DNA of 39,354 nucleotides from an uncultured Clostridia bacterium (GTDB lineage Bacteria > Bacillota > Clostridia > Christensenellales > UBA1242). Position 1 is the stretch's first letter. The number at the start of each line of letters is the position of its first letter. Where the stretch lies: NCBI GenBank assembly GCA_947168085.1, contig CAMVKM010000004.1, positions 1 through 39,354 on the forward strand, in the 5' to 3' direction. The notes beneath the pieces are model-generated. The model saw only the letters and a program-made list of their open reading frames with translations. It had not been told where the DNA came from and searched no databases. Position numbers and translations under genes: made by a program. Shown piece by piece: positions 16,050 through 27,440 of this stretch.

Positions 16050-16149
16050 AAAAATTCCTCTAATTAGTAAATATATTATATAACAAAGTTATACAATTGT
16101 CAACTTTTGTGAATGTTTTGTAAAAACATACAAAAAAATCATAAAAAAA

Positions 16150-16178
16150 CAAAAAGAGTGATGTTTCACTCTTTTATT
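16150..16178 (-). terminator. Terminator of ferredoxin gene
   Basis: AAAGAGTGA-tgt-TTCACTCTTT followed on the minus strand by a T-rich tract. Confidence 0.6.
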
Positions 16179-16345
16179 TCAATTGCTGCAACTGGGCAAG
16201 ATGCTGCAGCGTCTTTTGCTTGGCTATCATTTTTGTTTGGCAAAGCTTTTGCTTTTCCGTCATCATCCAAAACAAAAACTTGTGGGCAAATGCTGGTGCA
16301 AAGGCCACAACCAATGCAAATGTCTTTGTTTACTTTTGCTTCCAT
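16166..16345 (-). CDS. Ferredoxin, single [4Fe-4S] type
   Basis: MEAKVNKDICIGCGLCTSICPQVF...AAASCPVAAIEIKE; start at 16345 preceded by AAAAGGAG on minus strand. Confidence 0.92.
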   Translation of the reverse strand: MEAKVNKDICIGCGLCTSICPQVFVLDDDGKAKALPNKNDSQAKDAAASCPVAAIEIKE

Positions 16346-16519
16346 GTGTTTTCTCCTTTTGTTTTTTATTTTAACACATTTTATGAAAAAAGCAAAGCAA
16401 AAATGCAAAGTTTTTGTTTTTTTAAAAAGCAATTTGGCATTAAAAACAGTTTTTTGTGATACTTTAAAAAATGTTTTTTAAAATTTTAAGCATTTTTTAA
16501 TTTTTTTTGGTTAAAATTA

Positions 16520-16548
16520 TTGACAGACTTGTTTTTTTTTGTTACAAT
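16520..16548 (+). promoter_or_regulatory. tRNA-Asn promoter
   Basis: TTGACA-17 bp-TACAAT. Confidence 0.7.
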
Positions 16549-16582
16549 ATACGAGTAATCTTAAAAAAAAGACTACCAGTAT

Positions 16583-16658
16583 TCCTCAATAGCTCAGCTG
16601 GTAGAGCACTCGGCTGTTAACCGATAGGTCGCAGGTTCAAGTCCTGCTTGAGGAGCCA
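16583..16658 (+). tRNA. tRNA-Asn (GTT), CCA encoded
   Basis: TCCTCAA/TTGAGGA acceptor stem; AGCTCAGCTGGTAGAGC D-arm; anticodon GTT at 16616-16618; GCAGGTTCAAGTCCTGC T-arm. Confidence 0.97.
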
Positions 16659-16663
16659 AGCAG

Positions 16664-16694
16664 TCCACAATTCTTGCGAATTGTGGATTTTTTG
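16664..16694 (+). terminator. tRNA-Asn terminator
   Basis: TCCACAATTC-TTGC-GAATTGTGGATTTTTTT. Confidence 0.8.
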
Positions 16695-16707
16695 TTTCAC
16701 AAAAAAT

Positions 16708-16844
16708 GACTTGAATCTGCGCCGAAGTTTGTCTTGCAGTGCAAGCCAATCAATTTCACAAAACTCATAAAAACAAACAAGCTTGTTTTTACTGATTTTT
16801 GTTCATTGGACGCAGGTTAAGGCGTTGAAGAAGCTTGAGGATCA
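16708..16844. repeat. Degenerate tRNA-Asn T-arm/3'-end copies, one inverted and one direct
   Basis: 16708-16723 GACTTGAATCTGCGCC approximates the reverse complement of the tRNA GGTCGCAGGTTCAAGTC; 16805-16842 ATTGGACGCAGGTTAAG...GCTTGAGGA resembles tRNA ATAGGTCGCAGGTTCAAG..GCTTGAGGA. Confidence 0.5.
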
Positions 16845-16890
16845 AAAAAAGTCTAATTCTAAATTTCAAAGTTTTGAGTTAGACTTTTTC
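16844..16890 (+). terminator. Terminator-like hairpin
   Basis: AAAAAAGTCTAATTC...GAGTTAGACTTTTT. Confidence 0.5.
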
Positions 16891-17024
16891 ATTTTAAAGT
16901 AAATTATTAAATTTTTTTAAAAAGTTGACATTAAAAATTCAAAAACACTTGACACAGTGTGTTATAATATAATTAGAAAATACTTTCTAAAATTCTTGAC
17001 AAACTAAAAAGGGAGATTTATAAT

Positions 17025-17666
17025 ATGAACATCTTAAAAGGTTATGAAGAACAATTAAGTGGAATTTTTAGTGATTGGATTAAAGTTCAAGACTTTAAAA
17101 ATCCACTCACACTAGACAATTTTTCTAAAAATGGTGTTCCCGCAGAAATGGTTAAACCACACTGTGCGGTTTGTACAACAGTAAACCAATGCTGGTTTAA
17201 AAATGAAGAAAACAAAAAACCAAAAGAAATGGACTATGACAGTTATTCCAAATTTAACAGAAAACAAAAAGGGCTTTATCACCCTTATTGCCACTGCCAA
17301 AAAAGGGGACTTAATCCACCAAAAGAAGAAGATATTAAAATTGTTCTAGACAAAAACAAAGAAAATTATTTTTTTAATTCAAAAGGAAATTGGTTTTATT
17401 CTTGGGGATATAAAGATAAAGACAAAAATGATTTTATAAAAACACTAAAAGAAAAAATCATAAAGGCCTATGTTAGAGGAAATTATATAAATGGAAAATA
17501 TGATTTTGAAGAACAAAAGAAATATGGTTTTAGAATAAATATTTTTGTTACCATTGATGGAGTAAATGAAAACAAAGGACATTTTTATGATATGAAATCT
17601 GGTTTTATTGTTTATCCAAATGGAAGATTAAAAAACACAACGCCACTTATAAGGAGGGAAAAATGA
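17025..17666 (+). CDS. Putative toxin with MuF-like Cys/His segment and polymorphic-toxin-type C-terminal tail
   Basis: HCAVCTTVNQCWF...LYHPYCHCQ; C-terminus YGFRINI...MKSGFIVYPNGRLKNTTPLI; RBS AAAGGGAG; stop overlaps the downstream ATG (ATGA). Confidence 0.55.
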   Translation: MNILKGYEEQLSGIFSDWIKVQDFKNPLTLDNFSKNGVPAEMVKPHCAVCTTVNQCWFKNEENKKPKEMDYDSYSKFNRKQKGLYHPYCHCQKRGLNPPKEEDIKIVLDKNKENYFFNSKGNWFYSWGYKDKDKNDFIKTLKEKIIKAYVRGNYINGKYDFEEQKKYGFRINIFVTIDGVNENKGHFYDMKSGFIVYPNGRLKNTTPLIRREK

Positions 17667-18013
17667 GAATAAAATATTTAGATAAAGTGAGAGTTTTAAA
17701 AGACAATGAGAATTATAAAAAATCTAATGTTTTTGCCGGAGATGTTGGAGTTGTTTGGCTTCCTGAAATTCGAGATAACACATTTTATGTTATGTTTGAA
17801 AATGGAGAACAAGATTTTGACAAATTGGATTGTGTTGAAACTTGCATAAAGATTGAAGATTTGGAATTGGTTGAAGACTATGGTTTAACAAACGAACAAA
17901 TTGCCGAATCTTTGCCTTCTGATGAGCTTTGGTGGTGCGTTGTTGAAGACGGGTTCATCAAAAATATTAAGGGCGAAAAAAAGAACAAAATCCCTTTTGA
18001 CTATGATTCTTAA
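17663..18013 (+). CDS. Putative immunity protein, DUF4926-like
   Basis: YLDKVRVLKDNENYKKSNVFAGDVGVVW; paralog of 26003..26341 (WWC.VEDGFIKN.KGEKKNKIP.DYDS). Confidence 0.65.
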   Translation: MRIKYLDKVRVLKDNENYKKSNVFAGDVGVVWLPEIRDNTFYVMFENGEQDFDKLDCVETCIKIEDLELVEDYGLTNEQIAESLPSDELWWCVVEDGFIKNIKGEKKNKIPFDYDS

Positions 18014-18036
18014 GTGTTTCAATTTAGAATTCTTGT

Positions 18037-18143
18037 GGTGAGCCAACAAAAGCACCCTTTGTGTGTTTTTTTGTTCCTCGCAGGACTGCACGCATTGAGC
18101 GTGCTGTTTTGCTTTTGCAAAACGAACCTGCTAAGGCAACATC
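18037..18143 (+). ncRNA. Repeated structured element, copy 1 (predicted three-way junction)
   Basis: Outer stem GCAGG (18080-18084)/CCTGC (18127-18131), hairpin GCACGC-ATTGA-GCGTGC, hairpin GTTTTGC-TTTT-GCAAAAC, then TAAGGCAACATC; similar copy at 19109-19208. RNA versus DNA-site role unknown. Confidence 0.5.
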
Positions 18144-18170
18144 TCAAATTATGAGTTAAGAAAATTAGAT

Positions 18171-18299
18171 ATGCACGGGCAAAGAGTTAACATTAAAATT
18201 ATTTTAAAAAACAACAATAGAGAATATGAAATTATCTCAGGTTGGATGGTAAAACCTAATGGTAAATTATTGTTGCTAACTCCTCTTGCAGATGATTAA
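18171..18299 (+). pseudogene. Orphan toxin C-terminal fragment (42 aa)
   Basis: MHGQRVNIKIILKNNNREYEIISGWMVKPNGKLLLLTPLADD aligns with the C-terminus of the 17025 ORF. Confidence 0.55.
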
Positions 18300-18313
18300 A
18301 AGGAGAAAATTAT

Positions 18314-18574
18314 ATGAAAGAATATGACTTAGTGGAATTAATTAGAATGAGACCAGAATATGAAAAAGAAGGCTTAAAGCTTGGTGATTTTGGCGCAGTT
18401 ATGTGTGAAAAGCCAATCAATGGTGAATGGCTTATAATATTTTCAGAATTTTATACTGGAAAAGACATTGCTGATATTTCAGTAAAAGAAGAAGACCTAA
18501 AAGTTTGGGATAAAGTGCCCGAAGAAAAATTGCCACCACGAAAAATAAAAATAAATAAACCGAAGGAGAAATAG
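18314..18574 (+). CDS. Putative immunity protein, DUF4926-like
   Basis: MKEYDLVELIRMRPEYEKEGLKLGDFGAVM; RBS AAAAGGAG. Confidence 0.65.
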   Translation: MKEYDLVELIRMRPEYEKEGLKLGDFGAVMCEKPINGEWLIIFSEFYTGKDIADISVKEEDLKVWDKVPEEKLPPRKIKINKPKEK

Positions 18575-18609
18575 TAAACACAACGCCATTTGGAGGATGG
18601 ATACAATGA
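18574..18609 (+). pseudogene. Vestigial toxin C-terminal tail (VNTTPFGGWIQ*)
   Basis: Open frame TEGEIVNTTPFGGWIQ-TGA ending in an ATGA overlap with the ATG at 18606. Confidence 0.45.
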
Positions 18610-19073
18610 AAAAATTTGATTTAGTGGTTTTAAACAATGAAAAACCTTACATAAAACTTAATATTAAAGAAAAAACTTTGGGAATAGTTCTTGACTCTAA
18701 TCAAAACACGGCTCAAGTTTTGTTTTTTAATCCAAAAAACTTGGGTGAATATTTGATCGCAGAGATTTACCAAAAAGATTTGAATATACAACAAGAAGAA
18801 ATCTCAAAAGAAATCAAACAAGACATTGAAAAAAAATTAGATGAACTTATCAAAAAAGCAAAGCCGTTTTTTGATGTTCCAAAATTCAAATTATATGACA
18901 AAGTGAAACTTATTGTTGAAGATGAGAAATATACTAAATTTGGAATTCATAAAGGCGAAATTGGTGTTGTTGTTGATGATAATGCCGTGCAAAATTATGT
19001 TGAAGTTGATTTTGTGAATTTCAACGACTCAATTTCAGTTGATTTTAATGATTTAGAAATTATAAATAATTAA
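18606..19073 (+). CDS. Putative immunity protein with two DUF4926-like domains
   Basis: KKFDLVVLNNEKPYIKLNIKEKTLGIVL and FKLYDKVKLIVEDEKYTKFGIHKGEIGVVVD; start at 18606 fits the GGAGG spacing better than 18597. Confidence 0.65.
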   Translation: MKKFDLVVLNNEKPYIKLNIKEKTLGIVLDSNQNTAQVLFFNPKNLGEYLIAEIYQKDLNIQQEEISKEIKQDIEKKLDELIKKAKPFFDVPKFKLYDKVKLIVEDEKYTKFGIHKGEIGVVVDDNAVQNYVEVDFVNFNDSISVDFNDLEIINN

Positions 19074-19103
19074 AAAAGCCTTGCGTTCTGCAAGGTTTTT
19101 TTA
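19073..19103 (+). terminator. Terminator after third immunity gene
   Basis: AAGCCTTGC-GTTCT-GCAAGGTTTTTTT. Confidence 0.7.
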
Positions 19104-19108
19104 ATTTT

Positions 19109-19208
19109 GGTGAGCCACAAAAAGCCCATTTGGGCTTTTTTTGTTACTTGCAGGACTGCACCATGTGCTGTTTTGCATAAGCAAAACGAACCTTGCTAAG
19201 GCAACATC
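19109..19208 (+). ncRNA. Repeated structured element, copy 2 (predicted three-way junction)
   Basis: GCAGG (19150-19154)/CTTGC, GCAC-CAT-GTGC, GTTTTGC-ATAA-GCAAAAC, TAAGGCAACATC; preceded by terminator-like AAAGCCCATTTGGGCTTTTTT. Confidence 0.5.
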
Positions 19209-19433
19209 GTCAGTTGGTTAAAAGTGTTTAAGCACCTTATTGGACCATTAAAAAGGAATTATTGTTTTATCATCTATCTTATTTGTTTTTTGTGAACGCA
19301 TATTTTATTGCCAAGCGTTAGGTTAGTCACTTGTGTAAAAAGCACATGCTTAAATGTAAATTGAATTTTTTAAGTCATAACAAGACAAAATAAAAATTTT
19401 GTGATATAATAAAAGAAAATTCGTGAGGTGATT

Positions 19434-20099
19434 ATGAAAGTTTTACTTGCAGAAGATGACAAACAAATTTCAAGTGCTGTTAAACAGATTTTAGAGATGT
19501 CTGGGTTTGAGGTAATACCAGTTTTTGATGGAGAAAGTGCCTTTGAATTAGTTTCAAAAACAAATTTTGATGCTGTAATTTTGGATGTTATGATGCCAAA
19601 GATGAATGGCTTTGATGTCCTTAAAAGCATAAGAGAAAATGAAAACGAGGTGCCAATTCTAATGCTTACAGCACTTTCGCAAATTGATGACAAAGTACAT
19701 GGTCTTGATTTAGGGGCTGATGATTATCTTCCAAAACCTTTTGAAGCGAAAGAACTTGTAGCAAGAGTAAAAGCACTCACAAGACGACAAAAACAAGAAA
19801 CAAAAGTTTTAAATTTTGAAAATTTGAGTTTAAATCCAAATACTTTTGAAATCAGTGCTAGCAAAACTTTGCAACTCACAAACAAAGAATTTAAAATTCT
19901 AATGCTTCTTTTAAATTCTCAAAACATGCTTATGTCCACAGAAAGTCTTATGGAAAAAGTGTGGGGATATGAAAGTGAAAGTGAATTAAATGTAGTTTGG
20001 GTGTTTATTTCTGGACTTAGAAAAAAACTTGAAAAAATTGGGGCAAACTGCACAATTAAAGCAGTTCGCGGAGTTGGATATAAATTGGAGAAATTATGA
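19434..20099 (+). CDS. OmpR/PhoB-family response regulator
   Basis: LLAEDDKQISSAVKQIL, VILDVMMPKMNGFDVL, GADDYLPKPF, winged-helix C-terminus VRGVGYKLEKL. Confidence 0.95.
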   Translation: MKVLLAEDDKQISSAVKQILEMSGFEVIPVFDGESAFELVSKTNFDAVILDVMMPKMNGFDVLKSIRENENEVPILMLTALSQIDDKVHGLDLGADDYLPKPFEAKELVARVKALTRRQKQETKVLNFENLSLNPNTFEISASKTLQLTNKEFKILMLLLNSQNMLMSTESLMEKVWGYESESELNVVWVFISGLRKKLEKIGANCTIKAVRGVGYKLEKL

Positions 20100-21280
20100 T
20101 AAAAAAATTAAGGATAAGATTTGTTTGTGTTGCGATGGCTGCTGTGGTTTTGGTTTTGGGGCTGATGCTTTTTGTTATTAATATTACAAATTTTCAAAAT
20201 GTTATTAAAAATGCGGACAATGCTCTTTTAAGAATATCAGAAATGAATGCAGAAACTTTTGTTGTAAACGAAAATCCAGCGCCTCAACATGAACCAATGA
20301 GAGAAAGATTTTTTGTTGCCAGCATTGATGCAGATGGGAATTTGAGTGTAGATTTAACGCACTTAGAGTGGATTACAGAAGATGAAGCAAAGCAGATTGC
20401 TCAACAAGCATTTACGCTAAATCAAGAAAATGGTACAGTTAACGATTTTAGATTTTTAGTGTCTTCTGACAAAAAAACTGCGTGGCTTTTGGATTTGAAA
20501 AATGAATTTGAAAATTCAAACAACTTTTTGAAAAACAGTTTGATTGTTGGGGCGGTTGGAATAGTTTTTGTTTTTGTTTTGGTTGTTGTTTTTTCAAGAT
20601 TTGTTTTAAAGCCTGTTGAACAAAGTTATAAAAAACAAAAAGAGTTTATCACAAACGCTGCTCACGAACTCAAAACTCCGCTTACAGTAATTTCTCTTAA
20701 TAATGAACTCTGCGAGATGAAATTTGGAAAAAATGAAAACGCAGAAATTATTTCAATGCAAATAAAAAAACTCAAAGTTATGGTTCAAAATCTTTTAACA
20801 CTTTCACGAATTGACGAACAAGTTTTACAGCCAAAGAAAGAAAAACTTGATTTTTCAAATCTGTGTGAAAACTCTTTAAAAGAATTTGAAGAAGTTTTAA
20901 AAGCTGATGGTAAAACTTTTGAAAAGAAGATTGAAAAAGAATGTTTTATTCTGGGTGACGAAACATTTTTAAAACAACTTTTGTCTATATTTTTGGAAAA
21001 CGCATGCAAATATGCAGAAAACAAAACAGTTTTTGAGGTATTTAAAGAAAACAAGAAAATTATTTTAAGGATTTTGAATGATACAAAAATGGAAGATGGT
21101 AACATGGAAAAATGTTTTGACAGATTTTACAGAAGTGAAGATGCAAGGGCTTCAAATATTGAAGGAAGTGGAATTGGGCTTTCTGTGGCAAAAGAACTTT
21201 CCATTTTAGTTGGTGTAAAATTAAATGCGTTTGTTAAAGATAAAATGTTTGTGATTGAACTTGAGTTAAAACAGGCCTAA
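20096..21280 (+). CDS. Sensor histidine kinase
   Basis: N-terminal TM; KEFITNAAHELKTPLTVI H-box; ENACKYAEN N-box; GSGIGLSVAKEL G-box; 4-nt overlap with the regulator. Confidence 0.95.
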   Translation: MIKKLRIRFVCVAMAAVVLVLGLMLFVINITNFQNVIKNADNALLRISEMNAETFVVNENPAPQHEPMRERFFVASIDADGNLSVDLTHLEWITEDEAKQIAQQAFTLNQENGTVNDFRFLVSSDKKTAWLLDLKNEFENSNNFLKNSLIVGAVGIVFVFVLVVVFSRFVLKPVEQSYKKQKEFITNAAHELKTPLTVISLNNELCEMKFGKNENAEIISMQIKKLKVMVQNLLTLSRIDEQVLQPKKEKLDFSNLCENSLKEFEEVLKADGKTFEKKIEKECFILGDETFLKQLLSIFLENACKYAENKTVFEVFKENKKIILRILNDTKMEDGNMEKCFDRFYRSEDARASNIEGSGIGLSVAKELSILVGVKLNAFVKDKMFVIELELKQA

Positions 21281-21290
21281 ATGGTTATAT

Positions 21291-21318
21291 AAAAGGGATG
21301 TGATATCCCTTTTTTTGA
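21291..21318 (+). terminator. Terminator after two-component system
   Basis: AAAAGGGAT-GTG-ATATCCCTTTTTTT. Confidence 0.6.
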
Positions 21319-21364
21319 AAAAAAATAAAAGAATTTAAAAAAATAATTGAAAAAACTTAAAATT

Positions 21365-21402
21365 TTAAGTTAATTTAAGTTAATCTTTAAGTAAAATTAA
21401 GG
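21365..21402 (+). promoter_or_regulatory. Direct-repeat operator, candidate response-regulator site
   Basis: TTAAG(T/G) at 21365, 21375, 21387 and 21397 (10-12 bp periodicity) just upstream of TAAAAT (21412). Confidence 0.5.
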
Positions 21403-21472
21403 TTTCTCCTTTAAAATGTGGTTGTCTTAATCAAAAAGGCATAACAAAATCGCATTTTAGGAGGAATTAAAA

Positions 21473-22192
21473 ATGTCTAATACATTTGAAAGAAAAGAAA
21501 TTAAATATGTTTTAAGTAAAAAACAATATGAAGAAATTTTGAATGAGGTGGAAAAACACTGTACAAAAGATAATTTGTCTTTGTCTACAATACAAAGTAT
21601 TTACTATGACACACCAAACTATGAAATAATCAGAAAGTCCATTGAAAAGCCTGATTACAAAGAAAAATTAAGGTCTCGAAGCTATGGACTTGCAAATGAC
21701 AAAAGCGAAATATTTTTTGAATTAAAGAAAAAATATGACGGAATCGTTTACAAAAGAAGAATAAAAACAAATCAAACCAAAATAGACCAAATCCTAAAAT
21801 ATCCCTATTCTTTTGAAAATGCTGACCAAATAACAAGAGAAATTGCAAATTTTGCAACAAACTATGAAAATTTAGCACCCAAGTATTTGATTATTTATGA
21901 CAGGATTGCTTTAAAAGGTGAAAATGATTTAAGAATTACTTTTGACCAAAATCCAAGATATAGAACAACAGATTTAAATTTAACAACCAGTTTAGATGGA
22001 GCCCCTCTTTTGGGTGAGGGCGAAGTTATAATGGAAGTTAAAACAAGCACGGCTATGCCACTTTGGCTTGCTCATCTTTTGAGCGAGAAAAAGGCATACA
22101 AGCAAAGCTTTTCAAAGGTCGGCCAAGCCTATAAACTTGACATGTTAAGCAAACTTTCACTCAAACAGTCAAGAATGTTTGCTTGTGCTTAA
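21473..22192 (+). CDS. VTC domain-containing protein (polyphosphate polymerase-like)
   Basis: ERKEIKYVLSKKQYEEIL...SIYYDTPNYEIIRKSIEKPDYKEKLRSRSYG...VYKRRIKT...GEGEVIMEVKT. Confidence 0.85.
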   Translation: MSNTFERKEIKYVLSKKQYEEILNEVEKHCTKDNLSLSTIQSIYYDTPNYEIIRKSIEKPDYKEKLRSRSYGLANDKSEIFFELKKKYDGIVYKRRIKTNQTKIDQILKYPYSFENADQITREIANFATNYENLAPKYLIIYDRIALKGENDLRITFDQNPRYRTTDLNLTTSLDGAPLLGEGEVIMEVKTSTAMPLWLAHLLSEKKAYKQSFSKVGQAYKLDMLSKLSLKQSRMFACA

Positions 22193-22218
22193 AGATTAAA
22201 ATAAAAGGAGAAAATATT

Positions 22219-22896
22219 ATGGATATTTTTGCATCAATTTTTGATGGTGGGCTAACTGCTCTTACATTTTTAGAAATGTTTTTAGCTGCCATTGTAATGG
22301 GAGTTGCAATTGCTTTTATGAGCAAATATAAATCCAACTCCTCAAAAGGATTTTTTATAACACTTTCAATATTGCCGATATGTGTTGCTATGGTGATTTG
22401 CCTTGTAAGTGGAAATATTGGGGCTGGAATTGCTGTTGCTGGAGCGTTTGCTTTAATAAAATTTAGATCTGTTCAAGGAAAAGCGCAAGAAATCGTTTCA
22501 ATCTTTATTGCAATGGCGACAGGGCTTGCGTTTGGACTTGGTTATATTGCTTATGGTGTTATTTTTGGACTGATTGCTGGATTTTTTATGATGACACTTA
22601 CCAAACTACATGTTTTTGATAAAAAAACTGAATCTAATGATAAACTTATCAAAATAACAGTTCCAGAAGATATTGATTATGCAACAGCTTTTGAAGATGT
22701 TTTTCAAAAATACACTTTAAGTCATGAACTTTTAAAAGCAAAACTCACAAATCTTGGATCTATGTATAAGGCACATTTTAAAATTAAATTAAAAGATAAA
22801 AATGACCAAAAGAAATTTTTGGATGAAATAAGGGTTATAAATAAAAATTTAGAAATAAAAATAGAAAGCCCTGAACTAGACAGGCTTTCGCTTTAA
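22219..22896 (+). CDS. DUF4956-like membrane protein
   Basis: Multiple TM; AGAFALIKFRSVQGKAQEIVSIFIAMATGLAFGLGYI; start at 22219 after AAAAGGAG. Confidence 0.85.
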   Translation: MDIFASIFDGGLTALTFLEMFLAAIVMGVAIAFMSKYKSNSSKGFFITLSILPICVAMVICLVSGNIGAGIAVAGAFALIKFRSVQGKAQEIVSIFIAMATGLAFGLGYIAYGVIFGLIAGFFMMTLTKLHVFDKKTESNDKLIKITVPEDIDYATAFEDVFQKYTLSHELLKAKLTNLGSMYKAHFKIKLKDKNDQKKFLDEIRVINKNLEIKIESPELDRLSL

Positions 22897-22906
22897 AGGA
22901 GATATT

Positions 22907-25747
22907 ATGATAAATTTAAAATCAAGAAAAAGTTTTTTAATAAGTTTTTTGGCGCTTCTTTTATTTGTGCCACTGATTTTTTGCGCGTGCAATTCCGAGA
23001 ACACAAAAACCGAAAAAGAAACACCTACTCTTGAAATTGCAGACATTTCAAAAACATATGACGGGACAGCGGCTGCTATAAGTTATGAAACCAATTCAAA
23101 CGGAGAAGTTACAATTGTCTATAAAGGATATGACGCTGATGATAGTACTTATACAGATACTGCCCCAACAAATGCTGGAACTTATGTGGTGAAAGTGTCT
23201 GTTGCTGAATCTGACACCTACAAAGCAATTTCAGGCATAAAATCATTTACAATTTCAAAAGCAACGCCAACATACACAACACCAGAAACTGTTGCATTAC
23301 TTTCTGGAGAAACACTTGACACAATAGACCTTTCCTCTTTTGGACTTGAATGGCAAACTCCAAAAGTTGTTGTAACAGAAGCTGGAATATATTATGCAAG
23401 TTTTACACCGACAGACACCTCAAACTTTGAAACAGTTCAAAATATAGCTATAAATGTTGAAATTGTACAAACACAGGTTGAAATTCCAACCGTTACAAAC
23501 ACTAGCTTTGAGTTTAATGGCTCTTTGCATGGCCCAAATATAAGTTATGATAGCACTCAAGTAGCTGTTTCTGGAACATTAACTGAAACAAATGTTGGAA
23601 CCTATTGCATTCAATTTTCAAGGCTTGAAGAAAATACTGCTTGGAGTGATGGGACTACTGGAGATAAAACTTTTTATTGGTCAATTGAAGCCATTTCTGT
23701 TGATTGCCCAACTTTAAGCGAAACAAGTTTTGATTATGACGAAACACAAAAAACAGTCAGCCTCTCAGGATTTGATTCAGACACCATGCAAATTGTATCA
23801 AGCACGCTAAGTGCTACAGAGCCTGGAACATATAGTGTGGTTGTTGCACTGCTTGATAATGTTAACTATTGTTGGAGTGATGGAACAACTTCAAACAAAA
23901 TTTTAACTTGGACAATTGTTGATACATCTTATGATTTTGAAATAACATGTTCTGAAGGAACACAAAATGCATACACCATAACTCAAGACGAAACAACCGG
24001 TGAATATATTGTTCAGTTTACAAATGTTTCTTCCGATAGTGTTTATTCAATATCTGGAAATTTAAATGGACACATTGAAATAGACACTGGTGATGATTAT
24101 AAATTTGAACTTGAATTAAATGGTGTTACAATCGCCAGTAACACAACTGCCCCAATTCAAATTCTTTCAGGAGATAAAGTTCAAATCACAGCAAAGAAAA
24201 ACACTACAAACACCATTTTAGATAGTCGTGAAAATATAAGCGAAGATGAGTCACAGTATTCTTCAGCAATCTATGCAACCGTTGATCTTGTTCTTGGAGG
24301 AAAAGGAACACTTAATGTTACAAGCGAAAATAATAACGGAATTCACACAAAAGATGATTTAGAAGTGAAAAATTTGACACTTAATGTAAGTTGTATCGAT
24401 AATGCTTTAAAAGGAAATGACAGCGTAACCATTACAAGCGGAACTTTAACTTTAATTGCAAGACAAGGCGATGGAATTAAAACAACAAATAGTGATATTT
24501 CATCAAAAGGAAATCAAAGAGGAACAATTGCTCTTGATGGCGGAACTATAACAATTTATGCTGCTTGTGATGGAATTGATGCTGCCTATGATGTTACAAT
24601 TGCCTCTGACGTTACACTAAATGTTTACACAGACAAATATTCAAGTTATTCTGAAGAAGTAACAGCTGTTACAGATGGAACATATTACATTCGCTCAACT
24701 TCTTCAAGTTATAAGTATTCATTAAAATACACAACCTCAAATGGAACTGTTTGGGCAAATGCAAGTTACTATACTTCTGTTCGAAGTGGTGGCCCAGGTG
24801 ATGGGAAAACTTATTATTACTACAAAGTTAACAAACCATCAAATGCAACAAGTTTTGTTGTCTATGCTTACACATCTTCTCAATCACAAGGACAATCAAG
24901 CTCTTATAGTGCAGTTTCTTCAACTAAGGCATTAAATTCAAGTTATGACACAATCGCAGTCACAGTTAGTTCATCCAGTATTTCAACGAGTTGGACAAAC
25001 TACACAACACAGCAAGGTCCTGGCGGAATAAATCAGGGTAATTCAAATAAAGGTGATTACTCAACAAAAGGTATAAAAGCAAACAATCAAATCACCATTT
25101 CTGGTGGAACAATTTTTATAAAATCTTATGATGACGCAATTCATGCAAACAATGATGAAAGCCTTGAAAATGGAAGTACACCTGTTGGAAACGTAACAAT
25201 TTCTGGTGGAACGATTACACTTTATTCAAATGACGACGCAATTCATGCCGATGGAACACTTTTAATTTCTGGCGGAACTACTATAATTACAACCGCCTAG
25301 GAAGGGATCGAAGGAAACATCATAACCATCACAGACGGTAGTATTACGGTTAAAGCAAGCGATGATGGAGTAAATGCCCAAAGCCAAATCAATGTTTCTG
25401 GAGGAAGGCTTGATGTATCAGTTAGTGCAAACGGAGATACTGATGGCATTGATTCAAATGGTGGCATAACAATCACTGGCGGAATTGTTATCACTCGTGG
25501 ACCAAACAGCGAAATGGCATCACCTATTGATGCTGATGGGACTATTAGAATTAGTGGTGGAACTCTTGTGGTAGTGGGGTATTGCCCAAATATTTCCTCA
25601 AACCTTACAAAAACGCAAAGTTCGAATGGACTAACATCAGGAAATCACACCATAAGTGTTGGAGGACAAACAATAAGTTATTCAAATGCAAGTTCTTATA
25701 GTGGAAAAACAACCGTGTTTGGTTCAAGTTCGGCCACAATAAACTAA
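22907..25747 (+). pseudogene. Lipoprotein with MBG/Ig-like repeats and DUF4353-like beta-helix; in-frame TAG at 25298-25300
   Basis: Lipobox LIFCAC; ISGGTI/NDDAIHAD repeats; the ORF ends at TAG but the same frame stays open and homologous-looking to the TAA at 25745-25747. Confidence 0.75.
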
Positions 25748-25749
25748 CA

Positions 25750-25786
25750 TAAAAGCATTACACAAAATGTAATGCTTTTTGTTTTA
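25750..25786 (+). terminator. Terminator
   Basis: AAAAGCATTAC-ACAAAAT-GTAATGCTTTTT. Confidence 0.8.
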
Positions 25787-25791
25787 AAAAT

Positions 25792-25820
25792 AAGACAAAT
25801 AAAAAATTTTATGTTATACT
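25792..25820 (+). promoter_or_regulatory. Possible promoter upstream of the distal immunity cassette
   Basis: AAGACA-17 bp-TATACT. Confidence 0.35.
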
Positions 25821-25943
25821 CTTAAATAGAGGTAAAACAGAAATGGAAACTATACAAAATTCTATTTTAAAAAAATAAAAGACTAGCAAATTGAGGAGAA
25901 TTTTTGGTCTTTTTTATATGCAAAAAGTATGCAATAAAAATAG

Positions 25944-26003
25944 CAAAATATTTTACACTATGGAAAACTAAAAAATAATACATTATTAGGAGGATGGACA
26001 TAA
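25944..26003 (+). pseudogene. Vestigial toxin C-terminal tail (QNILHYGKLKNNTLLGGWT*)
   Basis: In-frame between TAG (25941) and TAA (26001-26003), which overlaps the immunity ATG; GKLKNNT matches GRLKNTT of the 17025 toxin tail. Confidence 0.45.
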
Positions 26004-26341
26004 TGATAATTTATGATAAAGTAAAGGTTATCAATGATAGACCAGAATATTTAGAATGGGGAGTAAAAAAGGGAATGATTGGAAGAATTTGCACAGCAGA
26101 AATTAGAGATAATGATTTTGAAGTTTGTTTTATAGATGAAAACATGATTAAAGATGATATAATCATTCCAATAAAAATAAAAGATTTAGAATTTGTTGAG
26201 CGTGGTTTTGGGACAATGGAAACTGTTTGGGATGAGCTTCCAAGCAAAGACCCAAGATGGTGGTGCCAGGTTGAAGATGGGTTTATAAAAAACTTTAAAG
26301 GAGAAAAGAAAAACAAGATTCCTTATGACTATGATTCTTAA
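26003..26341 (+). CDS. Orphan putative immunity protein, DUF4926-like
   Basis: MIIYDKVKVINDRPEYLEWGVKKGMIGRI; C-terminus near-identical to 17663..18013; start at 26003 fits the AGGAGG spacing. Confidence 0.7.
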   Translation: MIIYDKVKVINDRPEYLEWGVKKGMIGRICTAEIRDNDFEVCFIDENMIKDDIIIPIKIKDLEFVERGFGTMETVWDELPSKDPRWWCQVEDGFIKNFKGEKKNKIPYDYDS

Positions 26342-26351
26342 ATGTTTCGAT

Positions 26352-27440
26352 TTAGAATTCTTGTGGGTAGTCAACAAAAGCACCCTTTGGGTGTTTTTTT
26401 TGTTTTGATTTTTTTGTTCTTTTTTTGGCTAGAAAAACAAAAAACATAAACACAAAGCCAAAAAACCCCAAAATTGGATAGACAACTTGAATAAACAAAT
26501 TAAAACCAATGCCGCTAAAAACAAGTGCCACAAGGCTTGCAAGGGTGGTCATTAAAATTGGGCTGCCAAAATAGGTTTTTAGCCAGTTTGAAATGGTGTA
26601 GAGCATTGCAAACGAAGTTGTGAGCAGCCCCAGCCAAATAACGCAAAGCGAAAAAATTCCAAGCATCAAATTTTGGCTTAGGGCAATGTCCACAACCGGC
26701 ATGTTTGAAGCAAAAGATGTTGGGTTTAAAAAAAGTAGCATCAAAAGAAACACAAGTGCCAAAAACAGCAAAATGGAGCCAATAAGACTTCCCAAAACAA
26801 TTTCTTTTTTTTCATATTCTTTGCCTATTCTTGAAAAAACAAAGCCAGCAAAAAACATGTTGCTGCCCAAAAACAAAAGTGAAAACAAAATGCTGTTTGA
26901 AAATTGTTTTGGGTTTGTTGCTTCAATTTGAAAAGAAGTGCCACTTTTGGCTTCAAACACAAAAACCAAAACAATCATTAAGATTAAAAGTGGAACAACA
27001 AAAGCATTTGTTTTTGTTAGCCCCCTAAAGCCAAAACAAACAACCAAAATGCAAACAAATGCGCTTAAAACTCCAGCAAGGCGATAAGGAAAGTTTGGCA
27101 CAACAATTTCAAACAAACTGTCTGCTCCGGCAAACATTGATGAAAGCATTGCAAGGTTTGAAAGCACTAAAAAAATTTCCATAACACTAGACAATTTGCC
27201 AAAAGAGATAAAAGTTGCTTCTTGCACACTTTTTATTTGAAATGTTTTGCCAAAAGAAAAAAACAAAAGGCACGAAAAGAAAAACAAAACACAAACCAAA
27301 ATTGCTGAAAAAATTGATGCTGAGCCAAACCTTGCAAAGTAAAACCAAATTTCTTTTCCGGAAGCAAAACCAGCGCCAACAAGTGTTCCAAAAATTGTGA
27401 TTCCAACAAACATTGCGTTACAAAAATTTTGTTTGGTCAT
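26352..27440 (-). CDS. YkvI-like membrane transporter family protein
   Basis: GTLVGAGFASGKEIWFYFARFG, about 10 TM segments. Confidence 0.75.
   Translation of the reverse strand: MTKQNFCNAMFVGITIFGTLVGAGFASGKEIWFYFARFGSASIFSAILVCVLFFFSCLLFFSFGKTFQIKSVQEATFISFGKLSSVMEIFLVLSNLAMLSSMFAGADSLFEIVVPNFPYRLAGVLSAFVCILVVCFGFRGLTKTNAFVVPLLILMIVLVFVFEAKSGTSFQIEATNPKQFSNSILFSLLFLGSNMFFAGFVFSRIGKEYEKKEIVLGSLIGSILLFLALVFLLMLLFLNPTSFASNMPVVDIALSQNLMLGIFSLCVIWLGLLTTSFAMLYTISNWLKTYFGSPILMTTLASLVALVFSGIGFNLFIQVVYPILGFFGFVFMFFVFLAKKRTKKSKQKKHPKGAFVDYPQEF

Follow-up and report, generated by a model that had tools for sequence, protein, structure and literature searches.

A repeated, probably tRNA-derived element with a split inverted T-arm in an uncultured Clostridia bacterium

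Two copies of a repeated element lie in the window, by which we mean the whole 39,354-nucleotide stretch of DNA analysed here, at positions 18037-18143 (copy 1) and 19109-19208 (copy 2) of the + strand, and this element very probably derives from a tRNA. Judged from its sequence, it appears to be a displaced copy of the sequence that trails tRNA-Asn in this genus, and to belong to a tRNA-linked class of units where the loop of an inverted arm, either the T-arm or the anticodon arm, is opened by two hairpins. Such gene-less structured units, made from inverted arms of the host tRNA, are seemingly undescribed, neither Rfam nor the literature searched (open-licence full texts) having yielded a description of the class. 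tRNA genes are where mobile DNA of bacteria classically docks, and the class may mark insertion points of small mobile DNA at these genes. The best joint explanation, to which we give only slightly less than even chances, is that of a tRNA-derived element which would be the footprint of small DNA insertions at tRNA loops. Insertion footprints would explain the shuffling of tRNA trailers and orphan immunity genes in small reduced genomes, template-switch products would constitute a clear natural record of template switching at tRNA loops, and under either mechanism the class can be tested by long reads and comparative genomics.

Sequence and fold of the repeated element

The two copies are 83% identical by BLAST, with a mean column identity of 89% in the alignment, and have in common GGTGAGCCA..AAAAGC, a terminator hairpin, the series GCAGG-hairpin-hairpin-CCTGC and a tail, TAAGGCAACATC, in agreement with what an earlier note on this DNA had read from the letters. 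The sequence likewise bears out its account of the hairpins: the stem of hairpin 1 shortens from GCACGC/GCGTGC in copy 1 to GCAC/GTGC in copy 2, and hairpin 2 keeps its GTTTTGC/GCAAAAC stem in both copies, its loop changing from TTTT to ATAA. Where the note had the pairing of the outer stem preserved through G-T, the closing stem of copy 2 is instead GCAGG/CC(T)TGC with the T bulged; the inverted tRNA arm described below and a third, partial copy had been missed. In copy 1, a terminator-like hairpin with its T-run (18049-18075, +, from sequence and fold) is followed by a predicted three-way junction (18080-18131, +), containing hairpins at 18088-18104 and 18106-18123 (+) that are present in both the DNA and RNA folds, and by the tail (18132-18143, +), to which AAAGGCAACTTC in the organism's own tRNA-Met trailer is similar. 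The corresponding parts of copy 2, also on the + strand, are the terminator (19119-19143), a degenerate junction with a bulged T in its closing stem (19150-19196) and the tail (19197-19208). Directly 3' of copy 2, the sequence GTCAGTTGGTTAAAAGTG (19209-19226) resembles a tRNA D-arm. The partial copy (26360-26402, +) comprises a tRNA-end remnant, CTTGTGGGTAGTCAACA, and a terminator without the junction, and follows a paralogue of the gene at 17663. BLAST of the 1.13 Mb of the same genome retrieved no further full copies.

RNA folding of the whole element is better than expected by chance in the two copies (z = -2.4 and -2.9). The junction of copy 1 modelled as DNA yields z = -5.6, with 0 of 200 shuffles equalling it, and it is also the minimum-energy RNA fold, as is the case in most of the tRNA-linked copies. 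For copy 2, a rival long hairpin of the + strand RNA reaches -15.3 kcal/mol versus -12.9 kcal/mol for the junction, the pair probability in the RNA closing stem is 0.06 for the two inner pairs and around 0.4 for the outer three, and the minimum-energy fold as DNA is devoid of the closing stem. These predictions suggest that copy 2 is degenerate, a three-way junction being barely supported there.

Inverted arms at tRNA-Asn and at other tRNA genes

Read from 5' to 3', the element is composed of a remnant of the tRNA-Asn 3' end, a terminator, and an antisense T-arm whose T-loop is split by the two hairpins. The gene whose 3' part it copies, tRNA-Asn(GTT), is located at 16583-16658 on the + strand (ARAGORN, Rfam), and the copies sit 1.4 and 2.5 kb past it, not right behind it. 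In copy 1 the junction corresponds to an inverted T-arm, GCAGGACT ... CGAACCTGC, which matches the split antisense T-arm of tRNA-Asn in 16 of 17 bases, the best match among 119 distinct tRNAs, with a score reached by only 1 of 20,000 shuffles; for copy 2 the match is 14/17. Each displaced copy has on its 5' side a tRNA-end remnant and a terminator, the remnant being CTTGTGGTGAGCCAACA in copy 1 (18032-18048, +, from the alignment with the trailer of congener G004; the tRNA itself reads CTTGAGGAGCCA) and a weaker TTTTGGTGAGCCACA in copy 2 (19105-19119, +), which alone is not significant. The 5' arm of the shared GGTGAGCCA motif would then be a remnant of the acceptor/CCA end.

The same order is found behind the tRNA-Asn gene of congener G004, where the 3' end GGAGCCAACA precedes a terminator, GCAGGACTT, two successive hairpins and GAACCTGC. 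The part from GCAGGACTT to GAACCTGC corresponds to the T-arm of tRNA-Asn in reverse complement (17/17), with two hairpins inside the T-loop, and the element in the window runs in parallel from CTTGTGGTGAGCCAACA through the terminator and GCAGGACT to the two hairpins and CGAACCTGC. Indeed, the 5' part of copy 1 aligns with the G004 trailer from GAGCCAACA via the terminator to GCAGGACT, an outcome matched by 1 in 2000 shuffles. Since the order in copy 1 matches the inverted T-arm layout of G004, the closing stem of the junction corresponds to the inverted T-stem. The unit presently trailing tRNA-Asn in the window (16659-16843, +) is 87% identical to that of congener G002, conserved to about 16808, and comprises a terminator (16662-16693, +), a decayed antisense T-arm, TGACTTGAATCTGCGCC (16707-16723, +), and a decayed direct repeat of the T-arm/acceptor (16812-16843, +).

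We have carried out a survey of the tRNAs of this genome (29 matches), of 8 congeners and of a sample from 22 other genera, yielding 191 distinct terminal trailers. With a score of at least 15, a split inverted T-arm of the same tRNA was found in 7 trailers versus 0.25 expected from mis-assigned arms, and a split inverted anticodon arm in 9 versus 0.5, these 16 trailers including a few chance matches without hairpins. The clear cases for the T-arm are tRNA-Asn of G004 and G001 and the organism's own tRNA-Ile and tRNA-Met; those for the anticodon arm are tRNA-Ile(GAU) of G041 (17/17), G028, G033, G015 and G005, which represent five genera and are all opened at one loop position, just 3' of the anticodon. 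In the clear cases the inverted arm begins ∼40-48 nt past the CCA, and it always comes from the adjacent tRNA. The presence of a unit at the same tRNA differs among congeners. The window copies share with this class the split antisense arm and the two tight hairpins, but not the position directly after a tRNA gene.

Exactly two tight hairpins are present in 9/9 tRNA-linked inserts and in both window copies, compared with 39 of 4000 random stretches (∼1%), the count referring to a hand-set list of eleven cases that were chosen by arm match first and scored for hairpins later. The hairpin sequences are mostly unrelated between clear cases, and their pairing is kept. It is these inserts at tRNA genes, rather than the two copies of the window, that are the evidence of a maintained structure; the conservation of structure under changing sequence that the earlier note had read is backed by the nine inserts, the two window copies alone being insufficient to show it. 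Symmetric stem changes can also arise from template switching without selection (PMC8794818). The units L096 (behind tRNA-Asn, - strand), L112 (tRNA-Ile) and L124 (tRNA-Met) share a TGCAAGC...GCTTGC pairing; together with a hairpin, the stem of which varies in sequence from copy to copy, this pairing could make a pseudoknot.

Other features recur in the trailers. In 20 of 187 trailers, versus about 1 expected, the 3' end of the tRNA recurs as a direct repeat, at a distance of 56-282 nt downstream and mostly 120-205 nt. Tandem units occur at G003 tRNA-Tyr (L104) and at the organism's own tRNA-Leu(caa), and near-identical terminators are present twice per unit in the own tRNA-Met (L124) and tRNA-Leu(caa) (L132), in G001 tRNA-Asn (L095) and in G042 tRNA-Leu (L286). 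Furthermore, Lys, Asn and Thr units of different species (L140, L164, L151, L095 and L111) have in common a conserved core, GCTTTGGCTAA-hairpin-TTAACGCGTC, which occurs in both orientations; a close variant is present in L281, in the T-loop of a tRNA-Ile copy. In the Thr and Lys copies the core lies in the D-loop, between AGTTGG and AGAGC, together with a second hairpin. This core has no Rfam match among the loci scanned and was not found in viral contigs, and BLAST of a tRNA-Thr unit containing it against plasmids and phages returned short matches only, mostly to the tRNA-like part. The trailer of G003 tRNA-Ile (L098) consists of ∼66-bp units in tandem, each of which includes a CCA-like end in addition to a terminator and a piece of the anticodon arm (TAAGCGG).

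At the level of primary sequence, the element has no relatives in the collections searched. With Rfam (release 15) at the gathering score, the whole window and the trailers match tRNA alone; a permissive search of the element region gave weak terminator-type matches, none near the gathering score. BLAST of the element against the genus, 197 family genomes and 396 order genomes, BLAST against phages and plasmids, and exact-pattern searches of genome and viral collections all returned terminator or chance matches only, and no close sequence homologue was found in 309 family genomes. The surroundings of the lone genome pattern match, in Flavobacterium, bear no likeness to those of the element. 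A covariance model built from the two copies, a check suggested in the note, gave only weak matches over the 309 family genomes, those inspected being mostly coding-like or unrelated sequence. Further homologues with compensatory changes, on which the note had made its reading depend, are lacking by primary sequence but are found at the level of architecture. Patterns for inverted arms matched many viral sequences, few of them with two hairpins, and none was class-like among the matches listed.

Possible origins of the units

According to the explanation that we favour, the units would be the ends of small DNA elements with site-specific insertion at tRNA loops, or the footprints left by such elements, the insertion duplicating the tRNA 3' end and the junction working as a folded DNA (recombination) site and not as a transcribed RNA, as suggested by its position beyond the terminator. 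The window would then contain a tandem array of insertions (about 16659-18048, 18049-19119 and 19120-26376) headed by tRNA-Asn, in which copies 1 and 2 would be the joints on either side of an orphan toxin/immunity cassette, and the far end of which would be the partial copy at 26360. Of the two possibilities raised in the earlier note, a structured RNA or a folded recombination site, the latter, as a cassette boundary, is the best reading, since the copies flank 18144-19108 as direct repeats and contain remnants of the tRNA 3' end, and the RNA is less likely; among several mechanisms this choice is uncertain.

As a mechanism for the class, insertion is put forward tentatively, with rather less than an even chance. 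The repeated tRNA 3' ends, the tandem units, the variation among congeners and the breaks in the anticodon loop and T-loop speak in its favour: tyrosine integrases of islands and prophages cross over in these two loops (PMC2647930, PMC3146451), and Dehalococcoides islands have an ssrA direct repeat with a T-loop break (PMC3146451). On the other hand, no recombinase is linked to the class or seen, among the ORFs examined, between tRNA-Asn and 26400, the paired terminators are often near-identical, as local duplication would give, and in copy 2 the junction is decayed and the tRNA-end remnant weak. Ordinary integration leaves direct repeats, so that the inverted arm of the class also counts against insertion.

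Among known systems, the units may be compared with attR remnants, the direct repeats that islands and prophages leave when tyrosine recombinases integrate them at tRNA genes. Like these and the tandem ssrA islands of Dehalococcoides, they have tRNA or tmRNA targets, a break in the T-loop or anticodon loop and a repeated 3' piece (PMC2647930, PMC3146451); unlike them, the class units measure ∼150-220 bp, are mostly gene-less and have an inverted arm with two loop hairpins and no linked integrase. As to the direct repeat itself, the tRNA-end remnant is good in copy 1, weak in copy 2 and partial at 26360, and is clear in the 20 of 187 trailers given above. With MITEs and other small repeats (RUP, NEMIS/Correia, ERIC, rickettsial palindromic elements) the units have in common a size of ∼100-200 bp, an intergenic location and a high degree of pairing (PMC2229807), but conserved terminal inverted repeats and TA target duplication are missing, the hairpin sequences vary and the paired arm matches the adjacent tRNA; in the window, the flanks of the copies are without TA duplication and the ends pair weakly. 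The element resembles integron attC sites in that it may lie at a gene-cassette boundary and act as a folded single strand. An attC identity was rejected, as no RYYYAAC/GTTRRRY core sites 40-160 nt apart are present on either strand of 17900-19400, and no integron integrase was seen among the window ORFs scanned. REP and hammerhead identities were discarded, their signatures being absent, and a reading as a bridge-RNA-like guide was set aside by reasoning, the sense of the two guide halves being unfitting. An integron-analogous scheme, in which small elements of this reduced-genome family would carry an inverted arm of the target tRNA opened by two hairpins, a tRNA-tethered folded DNA site, insert behind tRNA genes and be able to carry toxin/immunity cassettes, is rather improbable.

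A somewhat unlikely alternative, and the strongest one, is that replication stalls at the tRNA and terminator palindrome and that the nascent strand switches to the other strand and back, which would leave the tRNA 3' end and its terminator on both sides of an inverted arm; fold-back copying would generate the hairpins, and ordinary recombination would later have carried copies 1 and 2 along with their neighbouring genes. The invariable origin of the inverted arm from the adjacent tRNA and the frequent presence of the same terminator twice per unit fit such template switching, which is known to leave inverted copies and hairpins beside palindromes and can create and maintain hairpins (PMC8794818). 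Nevertheless, template switching alone predicts neither two similar-sized tight hairpins in every insert, nor the break at an identical anticodon-loop position behind tRNA-Ile in five genera, nor a core sequence common to units of different tRNAs. Template-switch (quasipalindrome) mutations are not known to place a constant insert of two hairpins in tRNA loops.

It is quite unlikely that the units encode a structured non-coding RNA (for example tRNA-like or tRNA-pairing), transcribed from one strand and having the junction as its functional fold. Such an RNA would be in line with the minimum-energy folds of copy 1 and most tRNA-linked copies, and with hairpin sequences that vary while pairing stays. 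However, on the + strand the junction always lies 3' of the terminator T-run, from which we infer that the structured RNA is the less likely reading, and on the - strand the terminator A-run is missing in several copies; moreover, presence is variable between close species, Rfam gives no match, and in copy 2 the rival fold wins.

Neighbouring genes

The major genes of 17025-26341 are all on the + strand. The first of them (17025-17666) encodes a candidate orphan toxin-like domain, which has no match in Pfam and NCBIfam and whose C-terminus resembles DUF6883 proteins by eye; a CxxC/HPYCHC motif is present in this product. It is followed by a DUF4926-like candidate immunity protein (17663-18013, +), for which 5 of 14 aligned homologues match DUF4926 (best E 1.9e-6). 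Directly after copy 1 come a C-terminal fragment (18171-18299, +; best Pfam model DUF6883, E 0.078, below the cut-off) and two further DUF4926-like candidate immunity proteins (18314-18574, +, E 0.03, and 18597-19073, +, E 0.016), the latter preceding copy 2. The genes between the copies thus have the appearance of C-terminal pieces of orphan toxins accompanied by DUF4926-like partners, and the label of immunity is plausible for the latter; in gut bacteria orphan immunity genes are known (PMC12247911). In L043, L046, L053 and L068, loci of related genomes with homologues of the 17663-18013 gene, several DUF4926-like copies stand in tandem.

The placement after immunity genes, on which the earlier note had based its cassette-boundary proposal, is valid locally in the window. 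Homologues of the 17663-18013 gene are present in 25 of 197 family genomes, and in the 230 bases downstream of them, where readable, the element is absent, whereas units of the class are present behind tRNA genes; the element is thus very probably tRNA-derived and not specific to immunity genes. There is very little chance that it is a structured 3' untranslated region of the ordinary kind, duplicated together with paralogous immunity genes and tRNA-like by coincidence: the gene at 17663 does share its 3' end, untranslated region and terminator with the paralogue at 25994 at 85%, but the paralogue has no junction, the genes preceding copies 1 and 2 have no 3' end in common, elsewhere homologous genes are without the element, and the T-arm match is far beyond chance, this reading being already disfavoured.

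A Pfam scan of most ORFs of 16113-26341, the small ORF 25514-25747 left out, revealed no recombinase. Around tRNA-Asn the order of the genes varies from species to species, and its comparison gave neither an empty site nor an excision product. None of the 8 congeners has the response regulator gene of 19428 (E 1e-30), for which reason 19428-25747 looks like an accessory block. Encoded there in a row are a two-component system, a VTC domain protein, a DUF4956 protein and a Cthe_2159 carbohydrate-binding protein.
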